A stretch of 64,000 bases of DNA. Source: Actinokineospora xionganensis (GTDB lineage Bacteria; Actinomycetota; Actinomycetes; Mycobacteriales; Pseudonocardiaceae). The translations under genes and the position numbers were made by a program. The stretch's first letter is position 1; each line of letters starts with the position of its first letter. Positions 11,101-23,231 of this stretch are shown here, piece by piece. The stretch covers positions 186,001-250,000 of the forward strand of contig NZ_JABVED010000004.1 of assembly GCF_014323725.1 (NCBI RefSeq). Direction: 5' to 3'. The notes under the pieces are model-generated. The model worked only from the letters and a program-made list of their open reading frames with translations. It ran no database searches and was not told the DNA's origin.

Positions 11101-13656
11101 TCAGTATCCGATCGGGAACAGCTCAGCCGCCGAAGCCCACGGCCCACGCCCACCGGCCTCACTCAGCACCCGTACCCGCACATACCGGGCCGACGAAGGC
11201 CAGAAGCGAACGGTCTTGGTCTTCGCGTCATCAGGAAACGCGCCTGAGGTGACCTTGGACCAAGCACTCCCATCCGTGCTGAGTTCGACCTCATAACCAC
11301 CGAAGCGCCCATTCGCGCCGCCGTCCTGGCGGGGCACGTAGGTCAGGCCGGTGACCGTCCGCGCGCTGCCGAGGTCCAGGCGGATCTCGTGGGGCGGCTG
11401 GGCGGGCGAGGTCGACCAGCGGGTGTGCCAGATCGTCGATGTGGTGCCGTCCACGGCATTGCGGGCCGCACCGTTCTCGGCTGCCGTCTCCTCGCTGCTG
11501 ACATAGGAGACCACAGTGGACAGTCGGCCCGAGCCCATCACCGGGTCGCTCTTGCTCGCCGTCCCGGTTTCCACGTGGCCCGCGAACCGGCGCAGGAAGC
11601 CGTCGGTGGTGTCCGCGGTGGCGGTCAGGTCGTACCAGTAGTCGGTTCCGGCCACCGAGAAGTAGTCCTCGACCACCGCGTTCACCGCCACGGGGTACGT
11701 CCACGGCCCGCCCGAGCGGTTGCCCGCGACCACCTTGACCACGCACGCCGCCGTTCCGGTGTTGGTCATCCGCAGGTACACCCGGCCCTCGGCGGGCGCG
11801 TACCGAATGGTGACCTCCGGGTTCGCCTTGCCTGCCGAGGTCGCGGTGACCCGGTTGCCCGCGAACCGCCGGACGAAGCCGTTCGGGCCATACGCGGTCA
11901 GGTCGTAAGCGCCGGTGGGTGTTCCGGCAGTGAACGTGTCGGACAGCGACTTGCCCGCCTCCACGGTGTACCGCCAAGGCCCGTCGGTGCGGAACTGGTT
12001 GGCGTAGACGGAGAAGTGCGCCCCCGCGGTCCCACTGTTGACGAAGTCGAACGCCACCGAACCCGCCGTCACCGTCGACTTCACCGCGAGGTTGTAGGGC
12101 AGCGGCCGGGCGGGCCGGACTCCCGGCTCCTGCAGCGGGAACGCCTGCGTCGACGGCGGGGTGCGAAACGTGCCGCGAGGGCCGCTGGACGTCGCGGGCA
12201 CCGGCAGCGTCGGATAGGCGGGCACGGCGGTGTTCAGGTCCAGGGCCGAGGTGAGGTCGCCGCACACCGCGCGTCGCCACGGGGTGATGTTCGGCTCGGC
12301 GACGCCGGTGACCCGTTCGAGGAATTTGAGTACCGACGTGTGGTCGAACACCTCGGAACACACGTAGCCGCCGCGGGTCCACGGCGAGACGACGATCATC
12401 GGCACCCGTGCGCCGAGGCCGATCGGGGTGCCGGAGACGATCTCGTCGGCGAACGGGACCGTCGACTTGCCGTCCGAGCCGTCGCCGACCACCGGCGGCG
12501 TCGGCGCGGGCACGTGGTCGAAGAAGCCGTCGTTCTCGTCGTAGTTCAGGATGAAGACGGTCTTGTTCCACATGGTCTGGTTCGACGCGAGCACGTCGAG
12601 CAGCTTGCTGGTGAGCACGGCCCCGTTGGCGGGTCCGTTGGTCGAGTGCTCGCTTTCGGCGGTGTTGGGCACGAGCCAGGACACCGCGGGCAGCGTGCCG
12701 CGGTCGACGTCGGCCTTGAACGCGGCGAGCAGGCCGCCGCTGCGTTCGCGGCGCAGCGCGCCGTCGTAGAGGGCGCGCTCAGCGGGCGTCAGCGTGGCCA
12801 CACCCTCCGCCAGCTGGGCGAGCATGGTGTTCTGGGTGGTGCTCGACGCCCCGCGGAGCGCGTCGTAGAACGCCTCCACCTTTTTGTATCCGGTCTTCGC
12901 CAACGCCTTCAGTGCGACGTCCACAAAGGTCTTGAAGTATTCCAGAGAGTTGTCGGTGAAGTTGTCCCATTCCTGATAGACCCGCCAGGAGACACCCGCG
13001 GTCCGCAGCCGTTCGGCGTAGGTGGTCCAGGTGTAGCCGGTGTGGTTCGGGTTGCCGTAGGGCGCGTTGCCGGTGGCCCGGGTGGTGCCGCCGGGTTCGT
13101 ACCCGATCATCCCGCTGAACAGGTGGTTGCGGTTGGGGTTGGTCGGCCCCATCTCCGAGCAGTGGTAGGCGTCGCAGATGGTGAACGCCTCGGAAAGCGC
13201 GTAGTAGAAAGCCAGGTGTTCACGCCGGTAACCCGACATCGTGTTGGTCTGCTTGTGCGGCACCCAGGCGTCGTTGCGGCCCTTGGCCCACGCGGCGTGG
13301 CCGTCCGACCAGCCGTGTGGGGTCCCGGCCATGTGGTAGTCGCTGACCGCGTAGGGCAGAACGTATCCGTTGGGGTGACCTACTTTCAGGTCGGAAGTCA
13401 CCGCGCACGGCTGGTGGAACACCGAACGGCCGGTGGAGAGCGTGAGAGCGTTCGGGTCGTTGAAGCCGCGGATACCGCGCAGGGAACCGTAGTAGTGGTC
13501 GAACGACCGGTTCTCCTGCATCAGGATCACCACGTGTTCGATCAGTTCGAGCCCGCCGGTCGGCGCGGCGGCGGCCATCGCGGTGCGCACGCTCAGCGGC
13601 AGCAGGGAGAATGCCGCTGCGCCCGCGCCCAGTCCTAAGAAGCTACGGCGATCCAT
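11101..13656 (-). CDS. Secreted phospholipase C (phosphoesterase family) with discoidin domain
   Basis: An 851-residue exported phospholipase C of the non-haemolytic PlcC/PlcN family. The leader MDRRSFLGLGAGAAAFSLLP is a Tat signal. The phosphoesterase domain (about 35-470) shows IEHVVILMQENRSFDHYYG and EMGPTNPNRNHLFSG. Two C-terminal phospholipase repeats follow (about 510-700). The last 140 residues form an F5/8 type C (discoidin) domain, an uncommon addition that may bind carbohydrate or membrane surfaces. AGGAAG precedes the ATG. The gene is 42 bases downstream of the HAD phosphatase gene on the same strand, so both are probably read from the promoter at about 15.0 kb. The expected reaction releases diacylglycerol and phosphocholine or phosphoethanolamine outside the cell. 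Confidence 0.9.
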   Translation of the reverse strand: MDRRSFLGLGAGAAAFSLLPLSVRTAMAAAAPTGGLELIEHVVILMQENRSFDHYYGSLRGIRGFNDPNALTLSTGRSVFHQPCAVTSDLKVGHPNGYVLPYAVSDYHMAGTPHGWSDGHAAWAKGRNDAWVPHKQTNTMSGYRREHLAFYYALSEAFTICDAYHCSEMGPTNPNRNHLFSGMIGYEPGGTTRATGNAPYGNPNHTGYTWTTYAERLRTAGVSWRVYQEWDNFTDNSLEYFKTFVDVALKALAKTGYKKVEAFYDALRGASSTTQNTMLAQLAEGVATLTPAERALYDGALRRERSGGLLAAFKADVDRGTLPAVSWLVPNTAESEHSTNGPANGAVLTSKLLDVLASNQTMWNKTVFILNYDENDGFFDHVPAPTPPVVGDGSDGKSTVPFADEIVSGTPIGLGARVPMIVVSPWTRGGYVCSEVFDHTSVLKFLERVTGVAEPNITPWRRAVCGDLTSALDLNTAVPAYPTLPVPATSSGPRGTFRTPPSTQAFPLQEPGVRPARPLPYNLAVKSTVTAGSVAFDFVNSGTAGAHFSVYANQFRTDGPWRYTVEAGKSLSDTFTAGTPTGAYDLTAYGPNGFVRRFAGNRVTATSAGKANPEVTIRYAPAEGRVYLRMTNTGTAACVVKVVAGNRSGGPWTYPVAVNAVVEDYFSVAGTDYWYDLTATADTTDGFLRRFAGHVETGTASKSDPVMGSGRLSTVVSYVSSEETAAENGAARNAVDGTTSTIWHTRWSTSPAQPPHEIRLDLGSARTVTGLTYVPRQDGGANGRFGGYEVELSTDGSAWSKVTSGAFPDDAKTKTVRFWPSSARYVRVRVLSEAGGRGPWASAAELFPIGY

Positions 13657-13698
13657 GATCTTCCTATCTGCAGGGGGTGACAGGGAAGCAGACCGTCC

Positions 13699-14961
13699 CT
13701 AGTGGACGGTGTCGAGCTGGTCGGGGATCACGTGTCCGGCGTCGTCGACAACCGGCACAGGGGTGCCCGCGGCGTCGGTCGCACCCGTTGTGGCACAGGG
13801 ATAGGGCTTCGTCTGCGCGGGTTTGGGCCGGATGAACATCGGGTTGACGATCCAGCGGCCGTCGAGGTCGTGGTAGGCGTGGCACATCAGCTCGGTCTTG
13901 TTCCGGTTGATCACCAGGCGCAGCGCCGTGGCGTCGCGGACGAAGGTCAGGTCGGTCGTCGAGTCGCCCGCGCCGAACACCGGCCGCTTGTCTTCGGTCT
14001 GCCACTCGAACGCCTTGGCGCCGCGCACGCCGTAGATCTCCTGGTTGACCCAGCAGCGTTTGCCGTCGATGTAGGTGATCACACTGTCCGCGCCGTCGGC
14101 CACGTCTCCGCACCCGGTCAGCCGGTGGGTGAGCGCGCCCGCCCGCTTGACCGAGCGGATGCCGACGACCCGGTTCGCCGCGACGCCGACGCCCGCGGCC
14201 CACACCTCGACCACGTCCTGCGGTGACGCGGACACGACCCAGACGTCGAAACCGCCGCGCTGCAACGTTCTGACCAGATCGCGCTGCTGGTCGTAGTAGC
14301 GCACCCAGCCCGTCACCGCCTGGGTGCCGACAAGCTGGGTGGCCCCCACCGGAGCCGCCAGGTTCTCCCGCCGCGCGGCGGCGGCGAAGCCGCGAACCTG
14401 GGCGGGCGTCCACCCGGCCAGCAGCTGCGGAAGCCAGGCGTAGGACGGTTCCATCCGGCGGTGGTCGTAGCCGGCGAACGCGGCTGCCCCCGTGGTCGTC
14501 TCAGCGGCGGAGTACACGGTCAGGATCTCGTCGGCGCACCGCGTGTCGGTGCTGGTGGGCAACGGTGCGCCTGCCGCAACCGCGGTGCCACAGGCAGCGC
14601 GCAGGGTCGTCGCGGCGGCGGGCGTCAGATACCGGCTGGTGGCGGCCCAGTCGGCGGGCTGACGCACGACATCGTTGCGCAGCGCCCAGAACAGGGTGGC
14701 GTCGCCGACGTCGTTGCGGATCACGGTGTTGTCCCAGTCGAACACGGCGACCGGACGCTGCCCCTGACGGCCGCAGCGGCCGTGTTCGGCGATCATGGCG
14801 TCGAGCCGCTGCCGGTTGTCGCCGTGCCAGGCCTGCCCAGGGTCGAGGGTGGCGCACGCGGCGGGCGCGGCGGCGGCGGACGGAGTCGGCGCCCAGCTCA
14901 GCGCACCGACCACCAGGGCGGCTGTGAGGACGAGATTGGGGATGAGGATCGGTACTCGCAT
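13699..14961 (-). CDS. Secreted HAD-family phosphatase (phosphorylcholine phosphatase-like)
   Basis: A 420-residue protein with a Sec-type signal (MRVPILIPNLVLTAALVVGA, cleavage near ASAAAA). The HAD nucleophile motif VFDWDNTVIRND is near residue 73. Motif II is in VWVVSASPQ and the acidic motif in VFGAGDSTTDLTF. Its length and build resemble secreted phosphorylcholine phosphatases. With the phospholipase gene directly downstream, the pair would strip a phospholipid to free choline or ethanolamine plus phosphate. GGAAGGA precedes the ATG. The 24-bp element at 14981-15004 lies just upstream and matches elements in front of the ethanolamine-type operon, so the two are probably co-regulated. Substrate specificity is inferred. 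Confidence 0.8.
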   Translation of the reverse strand: MRVPILIPNLVLTAALVVGALSWAPTPSAAAAPAACATLDPGQAWHGDNRQRLDAMIAEHGRCGRQGQRPVAVFDWDNTVIRNDVGDATLFWALRNDVVRQPADWAATSRYLTPAAATTLRAACGTAVAAGAPLPTSTDTRCADEILTVYSAAETTTGAAAFAGYDHRRMEPSYAWLPQLLAGWTPAQVRGFAAAARRENLAAPVGATQLVGTQAVTGWVRYYDQQRDLVRTLQRGGFDVWVVSASPQDVVEVWAAGVGVAANRVVGIRSVKRAGALTHRLTGCGDVADGADSVITYIDGKRCWVNQEIYGVRGAKAFEWQTEDKRPVFGAGDSTTDLTFVRDATALRLVINRNKTELMCHAYHDLDGRWIVNPMFIRPKPAQTKPYPCATTGATDAAGTPVPVVDDAGHVIPDQLDTVH

Positions 14962-14980
14962 GAGCAGTCCTTCCAGGGTT

Positions 14981-15004
14981 TAATGGATCAAATGTGACCC
15001 ATTA
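14981..15004. promoter_or_regulatory. 24-bp operator-like element, copy 1 (phosphatase promoter)
   Basis: TAATGG, a 12-base spacer, then CCATTA, a perfect inverted repeat in its arms. It lies 20 bases upstream of the phosphatase ATG. Two more elements with identical geometry are at 20047 and 20176. The FadR-type regulator gene at 15103 is the obvious candidate binder. The rest of the 141-base gap holds no gene. Confidence 0.65.
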
Positions 15005-15102
15005 GACTCGCCTGGACAGGAAGCTTGGCGCACAAAGATGAGCGCGTCAAGCATCAAATAGACGAAAACCAACCATTACGCGCAACTTCGCGCACTGGAC
15101 AC

Positions 15103-15810
15103 TCAGCGGAGGAAACCGCGCAACAACGAGGCCGTGCCCTCGGTGTGCTCGGCCATCGCCTGACGCGCGGTCGCCGGGTCGCCGCCGAGGATGGCGTCGA
15201 CGATCGTCGCGTGCTGGGTGTTGGAGTGGTCCAGGTTCGGTTGCAGCAGCGGGATCCGGTCGAGCAGAGCGTCCACGCGCATCCGCACGTCGGCCACCGC
15301 GCTGGTGAGCGACGTCGAGCCGCTGGACTCCGCGATGGCCAGGTGCAGCCGGGCGTCGCGGCGCCGGTAGTCGTCCAGGTCGGCCACCGACGCCTCGGTG
15401 AGCGCGTCCTTGAGATGGCGTCGCTCGTCGGGCATGAGCGAGCGCATGGCGGCCTGCTCGGCGGTGCCGGTCTCGAGCACGTGCCGCAGGCAGAGCACGT
15501 CCTGCAGCTCTTCGGCGTCGATGACCCCGTCGCCCGCGGGCTTCGGGGGCAGCACCGCGTTGACGAAGGTGCCGCCGTAGCGGCCGCGGCGCGACTCGAC
15601 GTATCCGGCGTCGGACAGCGCGCGGATCGCCTCGCGCACGGTCACCCGGCTGACGCCGAGGCGCTCGGACAGCTCGCGTTCGGGCGGAAGCCTGCCACCC
15701 GCCTCGACGACGCCGAGGCGGACGGCCTGGAGCAGGCGCTCCACGGTCTCTTCGAACGCGTTCCCCGCACGGACCGGTCGGAAGAGTGCCGCACTCGCCT
15801 GCACACTCAT
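15103..15810 (-). CDS. GntR/FadR-family transcriptional regulator
   Basis: A 235-residue regulator with an N-terminal winged helix (VRLGVVEAGGRLPPERELSE, VSRVTVREAIRALSDAG) and a helical FCD effector domain (about 90-230). It is the last gene of the minus-strand operon glnA-like, hydrolase, aldehyde dehydrogenase, SDR, gntR, with eight bases to the SDR gene. It probably responds to a pathway metabolite and acts at the three 24-bp elements around the operon. This is inferred from position. The N-terminus begins MSVQASAALFRP with no better alternative start. Confidence 0.88.
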   Translation of the reverse strand: MSVQASAALFRPVRAGNAFEETVERLLQAVRLGVVEAGGRLPPERELSERLGVSRVTVREAIRALSDAGYVESRRGRYGGTFVNAVLPPKPAGDGVIDAEELQDVLCLRHVLETGTAEQAAMRSLMPDERRHLKDALTEASVADLDDYRRRDARLHLAIAESSGSTSLTSAVADVRMRVDALLDRIPLLQPNLDHSNTQHATIVDAILGGDPATARQAMAEHTEGTASLLRGFLR

Positions 15811-15818
15811 CTGCTCTC

Positions 15819-16583
15819 CTACACCGGGGTCACGTATGCGCCTGAGATCCCACCATCCACAAGGAACTGGGACGCGGTGATGAACGACGCGTCGTCACTG
15901 GCAAGGAATGCTACCGCAGCGGCGATCTCGCCGGGCTCGGCGAAGCGGCCGACCGGCACATGCACCAGCCTGCGCGCGGCCCGCTCCGGGTCCTTGGCGA
16001 ACAGCTCTTGGAGCAGCGGGGTGTTCACCGGCCCCGGGCACAGCGCGTTGACCCGGATGCCCTCGCGGGCGAACTGCACGCCCAGCTCACGGCTCATCGC
16101 CAGCACCCCACCCTTGGACGCGGTGTAGGAGATCTGCGAGGTGGCCGCGCCCATCACCGCCACGAACGACGCGGTGTTGACGATGGACCCCTTCCCCTGC
16201 CGCCGCATGTGCGGGATCGCGTACTTGCAGCACAGGTACACCGACTTCAGGTTGACGTCCTGCACCCGCTGCCACGCGTCGAGGCCGGTGGTGAGGATCG
16301 AGTCGTCGTCGGGCGGGGAGATCCCCGCGTTGTTGAACGCCACGTCGACCGAGCCGAACTCGGCGACGGCGGTGTCGAACAGCGACCGCACCTGCTCCTC
16401 GTCGGTCACGTCCGTGTGCACGAACAGGCCGCCGACCTCCTCGGCCACCGCCTTGCCCGCCGCGTCGGACACATCCGCCACCACGATGGTGGCGCCCTCG
16501 GCGGCCAAGCGGTGCGCCGTGGCCAGTCCCACGCCGCTCGCGCCGCCGGTGATGACCGCCACCCTGCCCTCGAAACGTCGCAT
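15819..16583 (-). CDS. Short-chain dehydrogenase/reductase
   Basis: A 254-residue classical SDR. It has the NAD-binding TGGASGVGLATA, NNAG (FNNAGISPPDD), catalytic Ser in VNTASFVAV, Tyr-Lys in YTASKGG, and PGPVNTPL. NAD preference is suggested by the acidic residue in VVADVSD. The operon codes for gamma-glutamylation, aldehyde oxidation and gamma-glutamyl hydrolysis. An alcohol dehydrogenase is the step needed between gamma-glutamylethanolamide and its aldehyde, and this SDR could supply it. That would favour ethanolamine over putrescine, since no amine oxidase gene is present. The substrate is inferred. Confidence 0.85.
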   Translation of the reverse strand: MRRFEGRVAVITGGASGVGLATAHRLAAEGATIVVADVSDAAGKAVAEEVGGLFVHTDVTDEEQVRSLFDTAVAEFGSVDVAFNNAGISPPDDDSILTTGLDAWQRVQDVNLKSVYLCCKYAIPHMRRQGKGSIVNTASFVAVMGAATSQISYTASKGGVLAMSRELGVQFAREGIRVNALCPGPVNTPLLQELFAKDPERAARRLVHVPVGRFAEPGEIAAAVAFLASDDASFITASQFLVDGGISGAYVTPV

Positions 16584-16589
16584 AGCCGA

Positions 16590-17957
16590 TCATCCCTCCG
16601 TGTCGATGAAGACGTTCTTGGTCTCGGTGAACGCCGCCAGGGCGTCCGGGCCGAGTTCCCGGCCGAGGCCGGACTGCTTGAAGCCGCCGAACGGTGTCCA
16701 ATACCGCACCGACGAATGCGAGTTGACCGACAGGTTCCCGGCCTCGACCGCCCGGGACACGCGCAGCGCACGGCCGACGTCGCGGGTCCAGATCGAGGCG
16801 GACAGGCCGTAGTCGGTGTCGTTGGCCATGGTGACCGCCTCGGCTTCGTCGGCGAACGGGAGCACCGCGACGATCGGCCCGAAGATCTCATCCGCGGCCA
16901 GCGGGTCGCGGACTCCCGACGGGGTGACCACGGTCGGCGGGAACCAGTAGCCCGGCCCGTCCGGAGCCGTCCCCTGGAAGGCGATCGGGGCGCCCTCCGG
17001 CAGGTACGAACGCACCTTCGCCCGGTGCCCGTGGGAGATCAGCGGACCCATCTCGGTCTTCTCATCGCCCGGGTCGCCGACCACGACGCCGCGTACGGCC
17101 GGTTCGAGCAGCTCCATGAACCGGTCGTAGACCGACTTCTGCACCAGGATGCGCGACCGGGCACAGCAGTCCTGGCCTGCGTTGTCGAACACCCCGTAGG
17201 GCGCCGCAGCGGCGGCCTTCTCCAGGTCGGCGTCGGCGAAGACGATGTTGGCGTTCTTCCCGCCCAGCTCCAGGGTCACCCGCTTCACCTGGTCGGCGCA
17301 ACCCGCCATGATCTGCTTGCCGACCTCTGTGGACCCGGTGAAGACCACCTTGCGCACCAACGGATGCGTGACGAACCGCTGCCCCACGACCGACCCCTTG
17401 CCCGGCAGCACCTGGAACACGTCCTGCGGGATACCCGCCTGATGCGCCAACTCCGCCAGCCGCAGCGCGGTGAGCGGAGTCAGCTCGGCGGGCTTGAGCA
17501 CGACGGTGTTGCCCGCCGCGAGCGCCGGTGCGAAACCCCACGACGCGATCGGCATCGGGAAGTTCCACGGCACGATCACCCCCACCACGCCCAACGGTTC
17601 GGCGAAGGTCAGGTCCACTCCCCCGGGCACCGGGATCTGCCTGCCGAACAGCCGCTCCGGGGCCGCCGCGTAGTAGTGCAGCACGTCGCGGACGTTGCCC
17701 GCCTCCCAGCGCGCGTTGCCGATGGTGTGACCGGCGTTGAGCACCTCAAGGCGGGCAAGGTTCTCCAGGTCGGCGTCGACCGCCTCGGCGAAGCGGCGCA
17801 GCAGTCGCGCCCGGTCCCCCGGCGCGACCGCCCGCCAGGCCGGGAACGCCTTGGCCGCGCGGGCGATCGCGGTGTCGGTCTCCTCGGCCGTGACCAGCCG
17901 GACCGAGTCCACGACCTGCTCGGTGGCCGGGTTGATCACGTCGAACTTGGCTGTCAT
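16590..17957 (-). CDS. NAD(P)-dependent aldehyde dehydrogenase
   Basis: A 455-residue aldehyde dehydrogenase. [20 protein letters not shown] and LKPAELTPL form the cofactor site, [11 protein letters not shown] the glycine motif, [11 protein letters not shown] the general-base glutamate, and [12 protein letters not shown] the catalytic cysteine. Its length is slightly below the family's usual 470-500. The ATG overlaps the stop of the hydrolase gene (ATGA), so it is coupled to it. By context it should oxidise a gamma-glutamyl aldehyde to the acid, as PuuC does in the putrescine pathway or its ethanolamine counterpart. Confidence 0.9.
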
Positions 17958-18679
17958 GCCCTCTCCTCGCGGTAGCGGCGCGCGGCGGCGACCAGGGCCG
18001 CGAAGAGCCGCACATCATCGGACTGCTGCTCGGGGTGCCACTGCACGCCGAGGACGAACTGGTCGCCGAGTCGCTCGACGGCCTCGACCGTGCCGTCCGC
18101 CGCCCGGCCGACGGCACGCAGCTCCGGGCCGAGCGTGGCGACGGCCTGGTGGTGGTAGCAGTGCGCCGTCGCGCGGCCGCCGAGGATGTCGGCGGCCCGA
18201 CTGCCCTCGTCGAGCCGGACCTCGCTCTTGCCGAAGGTCGCGGTCGCGGGCTGGTGGTCGGCCGAGCCGGTCGCCTCCGGCAGGTGCTGGGTCAGGGTCC
18301 CGCCGAGGGCGACGGCGAGCACCTGCATTCCCCGGCAGACGCCGAAGACGGGCACTTTCTCGGTGAGCGCGGCATTGAGCAGGGCGAACTCGAAAGCGTC
18401 GCGGTCCGGCATGCTCACGGTGGTGCGGTGGGGCGACTCGCCGTAGCGCCCCGGGTCGACGTCGGACCCGCCGGTGAGGACGAGGCCATCGACGAGCCCG
18501 GCCAGCTCGGGCGCGCCACCGCCGATGGGCGGCAGCAGCACAGGCACACCGCCCGCGGCCACGACCGCGTTGACGTAGTCACCGTGCAGGATGGCGGCGT
18601 CGGTGTCCCACACACCGAACCGGGCCCGCTCCCGGTACGTGGTGAGCCCGATGACCGGCCTAGAGGCGCTCGAAGGCAC
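17954..18679 (-). CDS. Gamma-glutamyl hydrolase, class I glutamine amidotransferase (PuuD-like)
   Basis: A 241-residue class I GATase-like hydrolase. The nucleophile cysteine is in VFGVCRGMQVLAVALGG and the catalytic histidine and glutamate in GVQWHPEQ. The N-terminal PVIGLTTY and LVLTGGSDVDP are typical of PuuD-type gamma-glutamyl-gamma-aminobutyrate hydrolases. In the operon it would release glutamate from the oxidised gamma-glutamyl intermediate. The GTG at 18679 overlaps the end of the glnA-like gene by 20 bases, so translation is coupled. Confidence 0.9.
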   Translation of the reverse strand: MPSSASRPVIGLTTYRERARFGVWDTDAAILHGDYVNAVVAAGGVPVLLPPIGGGAPELAGLVDGLVLTGGSDVDPGRYGESPHRTTVSMPDRDAFEFALLNAALTEKVPVFGVCRGMQVLAVALGGTLTQHLPEATGSADHQPATATFGKSEVRLDEGSRAADILGGRATAHCYHHQAVATLGPELRAVGRAADGTVEAVERLGDQFVLGVQWHPEQQSDDVRLFAALVAAARRYREERA

Positions 18680-20030
18680 GGACCTTCTCCCAGTCGGTGA
18701 CGGCGGCGTCGTAGGCGGTCAGTTCCACCTTGGCCGCGTTGAGGTAGTGCTCGATCACGTCGTCGCCGAAGGCGAGCCGGGCGGCCTTGCTCCGCGCCAG
18801 CACTTCGGCGGCCTCCCGCAGCGTGGTGGGCACGGTGGCCCGGCCGGAGGTGTAGGCGTTGCCGGTCAGCGCGGGCTCCAGCGGCAGCTCGTTGTCGATG
18901 CCGTGCAGACCGGCCGCGATCATGGCCGCGACCGCGAGGTACGGGTTGACGTCGCCGCCCGGCACCCGGTTCTCCACCCGCAGCGACTCGCCGTGCCCGA
19001 CCACGCGCAGCGCGCAGGTGCGGTTGTCCACGCCCCAGGCGATCGCGGTGGGCGCGAAACTCCCCGGCACGTAACGTTTGTAGGAGTTGATGTTGGGCGC
19101 GTAGAAGTAGGTGAACTCGCGCAGGCAGGCCAGCTGACCCGCGAGGAAGTGCTCCATCAGCGAAGAGAATCCCGAGGCCGACTCCCCCGCCAGCACGGCG
19201 TCGCCGTCGGTCGCGCGCAGGCTCAGGTGGATGTGGCAGGAGTTGCCTTCGCGCTGGTCGTACTTGGCCATGAAGGTCAGGCTCTTGCCCTCCTGGGCGG
19301 CGATCTCCTTCGCGCCGGTCTTGTAGATGCTGTGGTTGTCGCAAGTGGACAGCGCATCGGTGTAGCGGAACGCGATCTCGTGCTGGCCGGGGGCGCATTC
19401 ACCTTTGGCCGACTCCACGTACATCCCGGCGCCGGTCATCTCGTTGCGGATGCGGCGCAGCAGCGGCTCGACGCGGCCGGTCCCGATCATCGAGTAGTCG
19501 ACGTTGTACTGGTTCGCGGGCGTCAGGTCGCGGTAGCCGCGCTGCCAGGCCTGCTCGTAGGTCTCGTCGAAGACGACGAACTCCAGTTCGGTGCCGACGT
19601 AGGCGCCCAGGCCGCGCTCGGCGAGCCGGTCGAGCTGACGGCGCAGCACCTGCCGGGGCGACGGTGCGACCTCGCCGCCGCCGACCCACTCGACGTCGGC
19701 GAGGACCAGCGCGGTGCCCTCCTGCCAGGGGACCAGGCGCAGCGTGTCCAGGTCGGGCCGCAGGACGCAGTCGCCGTATCCCCTTTCCCACGAGGAGATC
19801 TCGAAGCCGTCGACGGTGTTCATGTCGACGTCCACGGCCAGCAGGTAGTTGCAGGCCTCGGTGGCGTGCGGGACGACCTCGGCGAGGAAGTACTCGGCCC
19901 CGCACCGCTTTCCCTGCAGCCTGCCCTGCATGTCGGTGATCGCCACCAGCACGGTGTCGACCGTGCCCGCGTCGACCAGCGCCCGCAGCTCCGCCACGGT
20001 GAGCATGCCCTTGCGTCGCCCCATCGCCAT
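18660..20030 (-). CDS. Glutamine synthetase-like gamma-glutamylamine synthetase
   Basis: A 456-residue glutamine-synthetase-family enzyme. The conserved catalytic stretches are present: VGTELEFVVFD (metal ligands), GQHEIAFRY, HIHLSL, NSYKRYVPGSFAP and RVENRVPGGDVNPYLAVA. Such GlnA-like enzymes ligate glutamate to putrescine, spermidine, ethanolamine or monoamines rather than ammonia. Here the ethanolamine-type permease, the SDR and the absence of an amine oxidase point to gamma-glutamylethanolamide synthetase, like GlnA4 of Streptomyces. It is the first gene of the operon. A 24-bp element at 20047-20070 lies just upstream. The start at 20030 has GGAGGTGG nearby. Confidence 0.88.
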   Translation of the reverse strand: MAMGRRKGMLTVAELRALVDAGTVDTVLVAITDMQGRLQGKRCGAEYFLAEVVPHATEACNYLLAVDVDMNTVDGFEISSWERGYGDCVLRPDLDTLRLVPWQEGTALVLADVEWVGGGEVAPSPRQVLRRQLDRLAERGLGAYVGTELEFVVFDETYEQAWQRGYRDLTPANQYNVDYSMIGTGRVEPLLRRIRNEMTGAGMYVESAKGECAPGQHEIAFRYTDALSTCDNHSIYKTGAKEIAAQEGKSLTFMAKYDQREGNSCHIHLSLRATDGDAVLAGESASGFSSLMEHFLAGQLACLREFTYFYAPNINSYKRYVPGSFAPTAIAWGVDNRTCALRVVGHGESLRVENRVPGGDVNPYLAVAAMIAAGLHGIDNELPLEPALTGNAYTSGRATVPTTLREAAEVLARSKAARLAFGDDVIEHYLNAAKVELTAYDAAVTDWEKVRAFERL

Positions 20031-20046
20031 CCACCTCCCGCTCGTT

Positions 20047-20070
20047 CAATGGAGCATTTGTAGCCCATTA
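20047..20070. promoter_or_regulatory. 24-bp operator-like element, copy 2 (glnA-like promoter)
   Basis: CAATGG, a 12-base spacer, then CCATTA: the same geometry as the copy at 14981. It lies 16 bases upstream of the glnA-like start codon, a position suited to repression. It shares the divergent gap with copy 3. Confidence 0.65.
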
Positions 20071-20175
20071 AACCTGGGATGTCCACAGCCTGTTCCAGCC
20101 AAAGCGCGGTCCACAGCGCCAACCCCTGGTAACACTTGACAAGAACGGGCTAGCGGCGGAACCTCTACCCCACTT

Positions 20176-20199
20176 TAAAGGACCGCCCACGGCCCATTA
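20176..20199. promoter_or_regulatory. 24-bp operator-like element, copy 3 (permease promoter)
   Basis: TAAAGG, a 12-base spacer, then CCATTA. One base of the left arm differs from copy 1 at the centre of the half-site. The spacer length is kept exactly. It lies 18 bases upstream of the permease GTG, which has its own GGGAGG at 20208-20213. Confidence 0.6.
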
Positions 20200-20217
20200 A
20201 CCCATTCGGGAGGCACC

Positions 20218-21681
20218 GTGTCCGTGCAACGGAACCGCGAGCACGTCGAATACAGCGAGGTCGACGCGGACTATCTGCGGCAGCGGCAGCTCAAACGAGG
20301 CGCCGCGGGGTGGCTGCTGCTGGCCGGACTCGGGGTCTCCTACGTCATCTCCGGCGACTTCGCGGGATGGAACTTCGGCCTGTCCAAGGGCGGCTGGGGC
20401 GGGCTGCTCATCGCGACCGTGCTGATGGCGGTCATGTACGGCTGCATGGTGTTCGGGCTCGCGGAGATGTCGTCGGCCCTGCCCGTCGCGGGGGCGGGCT
20501 ACGGCTTCGCGCGACGCGCTCTCGGCCCGCTCGGCGGGTTCGCCACCGGCGTGGCCATCCTGATCGAGTACTCGATAGCCCCGGCCGCCATCGCGGTGTT
20601 CATCGGCGGCTACGTCGAGGCACTCGGGTTGTTCGGGCTGACGAACAGCTGGCCGGTGTACCTGGCCTGCTACCTGATCTTCATCGGCATCCACCTGCGC
20701 GGCGTCGGCGAGGCGCTGCGGGTGATGTTCGCGATCACCGCGGTCGCGGTCGTGGCGCTGGTGGCCTTCGTGGTCGGCATGGTGCCGAAGTTCGACGCGG
20801 GCAAGCTGCTCGACATCCCGGCGACCGACGCGTTCGGCGCCAGCGCGTTCCTGCCGTTCGGGATCACCGGTGTGCTCGCCGCGCTCGTCTACGGCATCTG
20901 GTTCTTCCTCGCCGTCGAAGGGGTGCCGCTCGCCGCCGAGGAGGCGCGCGACCCCAAGCGGGACATGCCGCGCGGCATCATCGCCGCGATGGGCGCGCTG
21001 ACCGTGTTCGCCGCGCTGATCCTGCTGGTCGCCCCCGGCGGCTCCGGCTCGGCCGCGATCGCCAACTCGAACAACCCGCTGGTGGACTCGGTGAAGCTCG
21101 CCTACGGCGGGCAGAACGCGCTGAGCCAGATCATCAACTACGTCGGCCTCGCCGGCCTGGTCGCCAGCTTCTTCTCCATCATCTACGCGTACTCACGGCA
21201 GCTGTTCGCGCTGTCCCGGGCGGGTTACGTGCCGCGCTGGCTGTCGAAGACCGGCTCGCGCAAGACCCCGGTCTTCGCCCTGGTCGTGCCCGGCACCATC
21301 GGCTTCGTCCTGGCGACGGTTCTGGCGGCGAAGGACGCGGCGGCCGCGGGCGCGCTGCTCATCAACATCGCGGTGTTCGGCGCCACGGTGTCGTATGTCC
21401 TTTTGAACCTGTCGCACATCGTGCTGCGCAGGCGCGAACCCGACTTGGAGCGCCCGTACCGCACCCCCGGCGGCGCGATCACGACCAGTGTCGCCTTGGT
21501 GCTCGCGGTGGCCGCCGTGGTCGCCACCTTCCTGGTCGACCTGGTCGCCGCCGCGATCACCGGCGGCATCTTCCTCGCCGCACTCGGCTACTTCTGGTTC
21601 TACAGCCGCCACCGCCTCGTGGCGAACGCGCCGGAGGAGGAGTTCGCCGCGATCAAACGCGCCGAAGCGGAACTGAGCTGA
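20218..21681 (+). CDS. APC-family permease, ethanolamine permease type
   Basis: A 487-residue amino acid/polyamine/organocation transporter with about twelve membrane segments. The first segments read VSYVISGDFAGWNFGLSKGG, a stretch I associate with ethanolamine permeases (Eat). It is divergent from the glnA-like catabolic operon and shares the regulatory region with it. The expected role is uptake of the amine used by that operon, probably ethanolamine released by the secreted phospholipase and phosphatase. The GTG start has GGGAGG five bases upstream. Other amine substrates cannot be excluded. Confidence 0.87.
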   Translation: MSVQRNREHVEYSEVDADYLRQRQLKRGAAGWLLLAGLGVSYVISGDFAGWNFGLSKGGWGGLLIATVLMAVMYGCMVFGLAEMSSALPVAGAGYGFARRALGPLGGFATGVAILIEYSIAPAAIAVFIGGYVEALGLFGLTNSWPVYLACYLIFIGIHLRGVGEALRVMFAITAVAVVALVAFVVGMVPKFDAGKLLDIPATDAFGASAFLPFGITGVLAALVYGIWFFLAVEGVPLAAEEARDPKRDMPRGIIAAMGALTVFAALILLVAPGGSGSAAIANSNNPLVDSVKLAYGGQNALSQIINYVGLAGLVASFFSIIYAYSRQLFALSRAGYVPRWLSKTGSRKTPVFALVVPGTIGFVLATVLAAKDAAAAGALLINIAVFGATVSYVLLNLSHIVLRRREPDLERPYRTPGGAITTSVALVLAVAAVVATFLVDLVAAAITGGIFLAALGYFWFYSRHRLVANAPEEEFAAIKRAEAELS

Positions 21682-21690
21682 TCAACAGCG

Positions 21691-22233
21691 TCAGCAGGCT
21701 GGAGGGAGCCAGGCCGGGTCGGTGACGACCTGGTCTGGCTCCACTGTCATGACGTTCGGGTCGTGCGGGGTTCCCACGCCGAAGCTGAATCCGACCAGGG
21801 CGCCGGCGCACGTGCGCACCGCGCTTGGTCCGCCGTCGGTCATCGTGCCGCGCCAGGCGAGCGGGTCGACACCGACGCGCCAGACCTTCCAGTACGGCCT
21901 GCCGTCGGAGTGCCCGGCGCACGGGTCGGACGTCGGCAGCCCCTCGATGCGGCAGACGTAGTCGCGGTCCTGGTACGCGCCGAACTGGTCCCCGGCGTGC
22001 ACGGGCACTCCCGCGCCTTCGAGTGCGGTCCGAGCGTCGCCGTGGTGGCCGTGGGCGCAGCGGACGACGACATCCGGGCGGCCCGCGGCGGTGAGGTCGA
22101 CCGCGACGGTGACGCCGTCGTTCCCGCCGCACGGTCCCGGTGTCCACACCGGACCCGCCGTGGCCGCCCGCGTTGTCGAGGCGACCGCGAACGCGGCGAG
22201 GACGAGGGCGACGAGACGACTCCGTGTGGGCAC
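21691..22233 (-). CDS. Secreted protein of unknown function (SCO2322-like)
   Basis: A 180-residue exported protein. The leader starts PTRSRLVALVLAAFAVAS, with likely cleavage after ATA. The mature part has six or more cysteines, including VCRIEGLPTSDPC and RTCAGALVGFSFGVG, and the aromatic YWKVWRVG. This pattern is seen in small actinobacterial secreted proteins around SCO2322. I chose the GTG at 22233 because it starts the signal peptide directly; the longer frame from 22302 adds an unlikely leader. It converges on the permease gene. No function is known to me. Confidence 0.7.
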   Translation of the reverse strand: MPTRSRLVALVLAAFAVASTTRAATAGPVWTPGPCGGNDGVTVAVDLTAAGRPDVVVRCAHGHHGDARTALEGAGVPVHAGDQFGAYQDRDYVCRIEGLPTSDPCAGHSDGRPYWKVWRVGVDPLAWRGTMTDGGPSAVRTCAGALVGFSFGVGTPHDPNVMTVEPDQVVTDPAWLPPAC

Positions 22234-22490
22234 GGTCCGAACGTATGGGCAATGCCTCCGTGGTGCAGGCCCAGCGGCGTGATCGACCGGAAAGTAGTCC
22301 AAATCACCCTGTATAGCGCCCCAAATTCGGTCTGTTTGCCGGATTCGACTACATATGACCGTTTCCAGGAACTTGCGAATGGGTTAATACAGGTCAAAGA
22401 TCAGGCTCATTCTCTTGTGCGTCATCCACCTGGGTGATCACTCCGGATGGGCGTATCGACGTCCGCCCGGGACCCGAAAGGTTCTGAGCC

Positions 22491-23231
22491 GTGGCACGTC
22501 GTGGCCTCATCGTTGTTCCTCTCGTGCTCGCCGTAGCAATGGTCACCGCCACCGGCGGGGCCGCGCAGTCGCGGGAGCCCGCGCAAAGCCCGATCGACGT
22601 CACCTTCGACGCGATCAGATTCGATCCCGCCCAGCCCAGGCTCTCGGTCTCATACTGGCGCACGGATGTGGAGCTGGAATACGTGCGCAAGGACCTGTCC
22701 AGCCCGACTGGATGCGTTACGCGCCAAGCGGAGGAAACCGAGGAGGCCGCGGTCGAGCCGGGGTCCGGGCACGTGACGCTGGCGGGCGTGCGCTACGACC
22801 TGGTGCAGTTCCACTTCCACACGCCCGCCGAGCACCGGGTCGGCGGGCGGGCGGACCCGCTGGAGATGCACCTGGTCCACCGCGCCGCCGACGGCGGACT
22901 CCTGGTGATCGGCGTGCCGCTGCGCCCGGGCACGAGGTCCACTGTGGACAGTGTACTCGCGAGGCTCGCACCGGAGTGCGGTGAACCGGTCGACGTGCCC
23001 GACATCGAGTTGGGGACCTTGCTGCCCGCCAACCGCCTCATGTTGAGCTACACCGGTTCCCTCACCACCGCCCCGTTCACCGAAGGGGTGCGATGGTTCC
23101 TGGCGACGGGCATGACCGTGTCGCAAGCGACCATCGACCGCTTCCAGCAGCTGTTCACCGGCGGCAACGCCCGGGCGGTCCAACCGCTGGGCGGCCGAAC
23201 CCTGGCGCTGACACCGCGGACCGGCGGCTAA
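22491..23231 (+). CDS. Exported alpha-type carbonic anhydrase
   Basis: A 246-residue alpha-class carbonic anhydrase with a signal peptide (GLIVVPLVLAVAMVTATGGA). Zinc ligands are in QFHFHTPAEH and EMHLVH. The N-terminal QSPIDV and the substrate-pocket LSYTGSLTTAPFTEGVRW are family hallmarks. It hydrates carbon dioxide outside the membrane. The length matches bacterial periplasmic or secreted members. It starts with GTG at 22491, about eleven bases after AAAGG. It has no operon partner. The 257-base gap to the divergent secreted-protein gene holds the promoters but no gene. Confidence 0.9.
   Translation: MARRGLIVVPLVLAVAMVTATGGAAQSREPAQSPIDVTFDAIRFDPAQPRLSVSYWRTDVELEYVRKDLSSPTGCVTRQAEETEEAAVEPGSGHVTLAGVRYDLVQFHFHTPAEHRVGGRADPLEMHLVHRAADGGLLVIGVPLRPGTRSTVDSVLARLAPECGEPVDVPDIELGTLLPANRLMLSYTGSLTTAPFTEGVRWFLATGMTVSQATIDRFQQLFTGGNARAVQPLGGRTLALTPRTGG

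Follow-up and report, generated by a model that had tools for sequence, protein, structure and literature searches.

The stretch of DNA analysed here (hereafter the window) comprises 64,000 nucleotides of Actinokineospora xionganensis (RefSeq assembly GCF_014323725.1, contig NZ_JABVED010000004.1, positions 186,001 to 250,000) and contains a cluster of eight genes with three copies of an operator-like palindrome (Table 1). The genes encode a phospholipase C (PLC), a HAD phosphatase, a GntR/FCD regulator, a short-chain dehydrogenase/reductase (SDR), an aldehyde dehydrogenase (ALDH), a C26 amidohydrolase, a glutamine synthetase (GS)-like ligase, and an Eat-type permease; family searches found all eight at the positions and of the kinds named in an earlier reading of the sequence alone (the original prediction). 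The host genome (G000, 6.81 Mb) is compared below with its sister genome G150, and two other contigs of G000 are referred to as C11 and C56.

Table 1. Features of the cluster in window coordinates.
Feature	Position	Strand	Basis or remark
PLC: secreted phospholipase C carrying an F5/8C domain at its C-terminus; leader judged Tat-like by eye	11101..13656	-	TIGR03396
HAD phosphatase: secreted, distant homologue of phosphorylcholine phosphatase 4as2	13699..14961	-	PF12710, HAD motifs
Operator 1, TAATGG-N12-CCATTA	14981..15004		19 bp ahead of phosphatase start codon
Regulator: GntR/FCD, FadR-type, EpuRI orthologue	15103..15810	-	Family search; synteny and primers
SDR: proposed gamma-glutamylethanolamide dehydrogenase	15819..16583	-	NF004713 above cut-off
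ALDH: proposed gamma-glutamylacetaldehyde dehydrogenase	16590..17957	-	Family search
C26 amidohydrolase: proposed gamma-glutamylglycine hydrolase	17954..18679	-	Family search
GS-like ligase, GlnA4 type: proposed gamma-glutamylethanolamide synthetase	18660..20030	-	Orthology
Operator 2, CAATGG-N12-CCATTA	20047..20070		16 bp ahead of GS-like start codon
Operator 3, TAAAGG-N12-CCATTA	20176..20199		18 bp ahead of permease start codon
Permease: Eat-type ethanolamine permease	20218..21681	+	TIGR00908

The PLC scored 767 bits against TIGR03396, above the cut-off of 580 for the PC_PLC family. Its N-terminus carries a Tat-like signal (RRSFLG) and the HAD protein a Sec-like leader (both judged by eye), and the two genes lie on one strand 42 bp apart, in agreement with the single unit of exported enzymes that had been predicted. 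The HAD protein matches the PchP structure 4as2 with an E value of 1.6e-6 as a single sequence and 3e-8 by profile, and the HAD motifs DWDNT, SAS, and GD..TD are kept in nine of nine aligned homologues, DWDNT being invariant. The F5/8C (discoidin-like) domain at the PLC C-terminus, encoded at 11120-11500 of the window, has a possible role in surface targeting; the full-length architecture of PLC plus F5/8C also occurs in a paralogue on contig C11 and in four genomes of another genus.

The remaining genes make up the set of the GlnA4/EpuRI clusters (GS-like ligase, ALDH, SDR, amidotransferase, regulator, and permease), as do those of Streptomyces-like loci in our comparison (family f21). We infer that f21 is Streptomyces or very near it because the published Streptomyces coelicolor reverse transcription PCR primers for SCO1614 (EpuRI), SCO1613 (GlnA4), and SCO1612 land in the regulator, GS, and ALDH genes of the f21 loci, mostly with 0-4 mismatches; in locus L271, neither of the two glnA4 primers has a mismatch. 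The SCO1614 primers were missed in single f21 cases (e.g., the forward primer in L258 and the reverse primer in L266), and in four control loci from other genera they matched at other places with 4-6 mismatches; two primers on conserved stretches also matched the control loci at 1-3 mismatches. The GS-like ligase is identical to its L271 orthologue at 315 of 454 positions (69%) and scored below the cut-off for glutamine synthetase. Mapping the published active-site numbers of GlnA4 onto it gave no consistent offset. Its second-best PDB match is 5dm3, which we take to be the ligase of the Chromohalobacter salexigens gamma-glutamyl ethanolamine pathway; for the PDB entries 8yk5, 9gy2, and 9gye, no relevant publication was found in the open-licence literature. 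The permease scored 529 bits against TIGR00908 (“ethanolamine permease”; cut-off 382).

The regulator gene lies 3' of the SDR gene on the same strand, and its product is 49-53% identical to the GntR proteins of f21. Synteny and the primer matches identify it as the orthologue of Streptomyces EpuRI. The residues D152, H156, H200, and H222 occur without change in every one of the 54 homologues compared; these are presumably the FCD metal set, and their retention suggests that the effector may be a carboxylate compound. Deletion of EpuRI derepresses glnA4 (PMC6529630), to whose promoter the protein binds (PMC8998196); the portions of these two papers available to us name no operator sequence for it.

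Operators 1-3 are copies of one 24-bp palindrome, YAAWGG-N12-CCATTA, and correspond to the three elements of equal geometry that had been noticed ahead of the phosphatase, synthetase, and permease genes. The relaxed pattern gave three matches in the window and none in each of 30 shuffles. Across the whole genome, the strict pattern (YAAWGGN12CCATTR) matched at those three places only, with no match in the reversed control, and the relaxed pattern (YAAWGGN12CCWTTR) matched at four places, with two in the reversed control. The fourth place is on contig C56, where it precedes a second gene of the GlnA4 type by about 140 bp. When the gap between GS and permease was aligned with that of the sister genome G150, 14 of 175 aligned bases were mismatched, with indels in addition; operator 2 is unchanged there, and operator 3 is altered only at the last R.

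The operator was also sought around 80 GS homologue loci from named genomes (1.57 Mb; up to 10 kb on each side, with 22 loci shorter than 21 kb). When spacers of 0-24 bases were scanned upstream of the 80 GS genes, a spacer of 12 was found in 41 loci and one of 13 in 10, with no other; the N12 or N13 form is present in 42 of 80 loci. All 64 N12 matches in these loci lie at GS or beside the regulator or permease: 50 within 500 bases before GS, two abutting the GS start (L083 and L087), and 12 beside the regulator, where they precede another APC permease in Kribbella and Actinomadura. In these Kribbella and Actinomadura clusters (L080, 5621-7212; L114, 8372-9966), a different APC permease (of TIGR00907 type, below cut-off) takes the place of Eat behind the operator. 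The form with a 13-base spacer stands upstream of GS in L044, L045, L047, L049, L050, L053-L056, and L099, and inspection by eye picked out near variants in several of the 38 loci lacking an exact match. Moreover, the regulator-GS gap carries the element at 1-2 mismatches in 14 of 14 Streptomyces-like clusters whose regulator and GS genes adjoin, compared with 21 of 850 random 150-base fragments that match equally well or better; gap lengths vary in this test, L272 was left out for its layout, and L268 and L269 have no GS. The conservation of the operator at GS, permease, and regulator positions is in line with the proposal that these genes form one regulon.

Regarding the substrate, the related loci are informative. 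Glycine-cleavage genes lie downstream in 40 of the 80 loci: in 30 (Amycolatopsis, Prauserella, and Qaidamihabitans) GcvP and GcvT follow the SDR, continuing with GcvH and serine hydroxymethyltransferase in 24, with serine dehydratase in three, and with neither in three, and in ten others (Streptosporangium- and Actinomadura-type, and one metagenome-assembled genome) GcvT, GcvH, and serine dehydratase follow. Representatives of these glycine genes scored above NCBIfam cut-offs. The product of the pathway is therefore probably glycine and its substrate ethanolamine rather than putrescine, because a pathway ending in glycine fits only the former; the permease equivalog and orthology to the published glnA4 cluster point the same way, as the original prediction had favoured. 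EutB (PF06751) is absent from the whole genome, as judged by a search that detected it in an E. coli control. A polyamine pathway of the Puu type, which the PuuD- and PuuC-like members and the GS-like ligase might bring to mind, was rejected as hardly credible: the ligase scored 185 bits against a cut-off of 650 for gamma-glutamylputrescine synthetase (NF045547), the permease is of the Eat type, the eight genes include an SDR and no amine oxidase, the relatives carry glycine genes, and deletion of glnA4 in S. coelicolor is reported to leave polyamine use unchanged (PMC8998196). Some clusters (L222, 5994-13250; also L095, L105, L117, and L120) adjoin genes for an APH-type kinase and a fusion of a flavin adenine dinucleotide (FAD) oxidoreductase with a GcvT domain, which might represent a further branch in the use of amines or methylamine.

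The two hydrolases are linked to the pathway in other genomes as well. Among 394 genomes of the class, 17 (the host included) carry the HAD gene, and in 12 of the 12 carriers among the 39 f21 genomes it directly follows the ALDH-SDR genes of a GlnA4 cluster; it directly follows Eat in G561 and is without such a neighbour in G330, G553, and G485. In three f21 genomes (G421, G464, and G631), the operator stands 21-22 bp before the start codon, as placed, of a TIGR03396-type PLC; two of these three proteins were scored and both pass TIGR03396. This PLC lies far from the GS cluster (about 3.9 Mb in G421 and 3.4 Mb in G631), and in G464 there is no GS within the 16 kb around it. Between the PLC operators of G421 and G464, the arms are identical at 12 of 12 positions and the spacer at 6 of 12. 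The ties of the phosphatase and of the PLC to the pathway, both part of the original prediction, thus recur in other genomes, and its interpretation largely holds, each link having comparative support. In L270 and L271, no HAD follows the SDR. A gene 3' of HAD in L256 (13797-14690), L257 (13906-14814), and L263 (9540-10439) encodes a protein that starts with MSM.(T/S)PPGWYPDP or alike; this protein is a candidate for what the published cluster lists as “orf1 membrane protein”. Identity of that orf1 with HAD itself was considered and is not established, as this other gene follows HAD there and HAD is missing after the SDR in L270 and L271.

Taken together, we give a probability of about three in four to the reading that the window encodes an ethanolamine-foraging regulon, with lipid hydrolases, an importer, and gamma-glutamyl enzymes under one operator. 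We infer the substrates, the contact between repressor and operator in this host, the inducer, and the feedback as follows. The secreted PLC would cleave the head group from external phospholipids, the proposed target being phosphatidylethanolamine, and the secreted PchP-like HAD enzyme would convert phosphoethanolamine to ethanolamine and phosphate. Ethanolamine would be taken up by the Eat permease, converted to gamma-glutamylethanolamide by the GlnA4-type ligase, and oxidized to gamma-glutamylglycine by the SDR and ALDH, from which the C26 hydrolase would release glutamate and glycine. The EpuRI-type GntR/FCD repressor may act on the 24-bp operator before each of the three transcription units, which would be induced on ethanolamine. 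The most likely inducer would be a carboxylate-bearing intermediate of the pathway bound at the FCD metal site, and hydrolysis would therefore feed its own induction.

Several observations weigh against the ethanolamine-foraging reading. In surveys with the strict operator, 32 of 150 genomes of the family had a match versus 20 in the reversed control, and 10 of 394 genomes of the class versus 14. Raw counts over many genomes are uninformative alone, and it is the places of the matches that carry the evidence: 15 of the 32 family genomes (the host included) have a match at GS or Eat, the others examined (all but G056 and a second site of G112) looking like chance, and the ten class genomes comprise five with the operator in GlnA4 clusters (G000, G045, G350, G360, and G548), the three with it before PLC, and two with it elsewhere (G351 and G395). 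Because the commoner CCTTT variants escape the strict pattern, the low count in the class says nothing on absence. A promoter scan found no sigma-70-like promoter, and neither a PLC nor a phosphatase is among the targets that the available text of PMC8998196 names for EpuRI in electrophoretic mobility shift assays. In the PDB, the HAD protein has its best match in 4gxt, an uncharacterised protein that ranks above 4as2. The link between PLC and operator, taken with the strict pattern only, occurs in 3 of the 39 f21 genomes, of which G464 and G631 share one site and are not independent. In addition, 14 of 16 genomes of the genus are without HAD and Eat, and linkage to PLC or HAD is absent from most relatives: neither gene occurs in the stretches covered at any of the 80 GS loci, and the HADs of 13 family genomes from other genera are unlinked and have no operator in the stretches taken. 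The family names of the PLC and of the phosphatase homologue, finally, point to choline.

The lack of linkage in those 80 loci and 13 genomes might also be explained if HAD and PLC were a phosphate-scavenging pair lying beside the cluster by chance, with the operator-like site a neutral relic. We regard this as very improbable. Operator 1 stands before HAD at a distance matching that of the other operators, and its 24 bases are all identical in G150, an argument that is weak alone given that the whole upstream gap differs at only 6 of 141 bases, none of them inside the operator. The PLC paralogue on contig C11 (63% identical) shows neither an operator nor a HAD gene in an 18-kb stretch. Control by the Pho regulon was rejected, no PHO-like repeat (GTTCA-N6-GTTCA, with up to two mismatches) having been found in 14962-15102, before HAD. 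The HAD and PLC links in Streptomyces-like genomes are separate from each other. The choline family names would favour mixed head-group scavenging, in which the PLC and phosphatase would have phosphatidylcholine and phosphocholine as their main substrates, or would accept many head groups, with ethanolamine as the product used as a signal and choline handled elsewhere: TIGR03396 is named phosphocholine-specific, and the characterised HAD homologue is a phosphorylcholine phosphatase. We consider this unlikely, as each of the four places where the operator occurs in the genome lies at a GlnA4-type gene, Eat, or HAD-PLC, and choline, a quaternary amine, cannot be gamma-glutamylated. Lipid stripping seems to be wired to the amine, as the ethanolamine-foraging reading has it. 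We lean, by little, toward the wider view that EpuRI-type repressors control phospholipid foraging in two lineages at least, Actinokineospora and Streptomyces, which differ in gene arrangement, with PLC and a dedicated phosphoethanolamine phosphatase under the operator or in the operon. Membrane lipids would then serve as a source of nitrogen and carbon, drawn on under the control of the amine and outside the phosphate regulon, and a gamma-glutamyl intermediate would provide positive feedback. The leaning is slight because, outside the window, two independent sites support the PLC link.

G000 and G150 each have two GlnA4-type genes, compared with one in each of the remaining 14 genus genomes. 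Trees were built of GS (89 rows) and of GntR (59 rows); in both, a starred Actinokineospora clade (100/98) includes the copy on C56 but not that of the window. The window GntR belongs to a starred set of eight with Amycolatopsis, Prauserella, and Qaidamihabitans (100/99), and the GS tree leaves the nearest kin of the window pair unresolved. The window cluster is a second copy in its genome, is placed by these trees outside the clade of its genus, and is also present in one of the 15 other genus genomes. Eat (E 1e-100) and HAD (E 1e-10) were found only in G000 and G150 among the 16, and the whole window arrangement is kept in G150. The second cluster, with its importer, phosphatase, and PLC, may have made a foraging pathway out of one that served recycling. 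The cluster on C56 (L184, 5756-10850) is of the genus-typical GlnA4 kind with no Eat, HAD, or PLC nearby; it has one operator copy, CAAAGG-N12-CCTTTG, and the next divergent gene resembles a secreted protease. Beside the permease of the window lie a gene for a secreted-looking protein that matches no Pfam or NCBIfam family (21691-22302) and one for an alpha-type carbonic anhydrase (22491-23231).

The gamma-glutamyl ethanolamine route and its repressor are already published (PMC6529630), and head-group hydrolysis feeding such a route is known in Phaeobacter (PMC10132767). What is new is the operator, the PchP-like secreted phosphatase as a recurrent cluster member, and the secreted PLC under the operator, here and in three Streptomyces-like genomes; in the open-licence literature, we found neither a PLC/phosphatase unit under amine control nor this EpuRI operator described. 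The sources available to us treat the secreted hydrolases of phospholipids or head groups, both in streptomycetes and in marine bacteria, chiefly as genes of phosphate starvation (PMC7866108; PMC10132767); Streptomyces glpQ1 and glpQ2 respond to phosphate via PhoP, and the PHO box consists of two 11-nt direct repeats (PMC7866108). If the reading is true, some actinomycetes cut lipids for the amine under an amine-sensing repressor, and EpuRI gains a defined operator and two unforeseen kinds of target. It would also provide a specific substrate hypothesis for one group of HAD phosphatases and would indicate where in nature the ethanolamine for this pathway could come from, which has so far been a matter of assumption.

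In Pseudomonas, PlcH and PchP scavenge head groups in a system tied to choline. The window shares with it a homologous PLC, a distantly related HAD phosphatase (4as2 and 4as3 being PchP structures), and the same proposed order of steps, but is tied to ethanolamine genes instead, and its PLC has the extra F5/8C domain. The gamma-glutamyl ethanolamine pathway of C. salexigens, which PMC6529630 and PMC10132767 cite, reportedly follows the chemistry proposed here. It has a TRAP importer and is not known to include hydrolases. The S. coelicolor GlnA4/EpuRI cluster (SCO1610-SCO1615) has the same GS-like ligase, ALDH, SDR, amidotransferase, and repressor gene, and the permease is shared with the clusters of other Streptomyces; the available text describes no phosphatase, phospholipase, or operator sequence there (PMC6529630), whereas the window adds HAD and PLC under the operator. 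In Phaeobacter, PhoX and EtoX lead into the gamma-glutamyl pathway, and extracellular hydrolysis and ethanolamine import likewise precede the formation of glycine and glutamate; high head-group concentrations still support growth of phoX and phoB mutants (PMC10132767). However, most of the phosphorus-stress enzymes described for Phaeobacter belong to the PhoB regulon and the ethanolamine genes, with a TRAP importer and an RpiR regulator gene, are induced separately by substrate (PMC10132767), whereas the hydrolases of the window share the operator of the amine genes.

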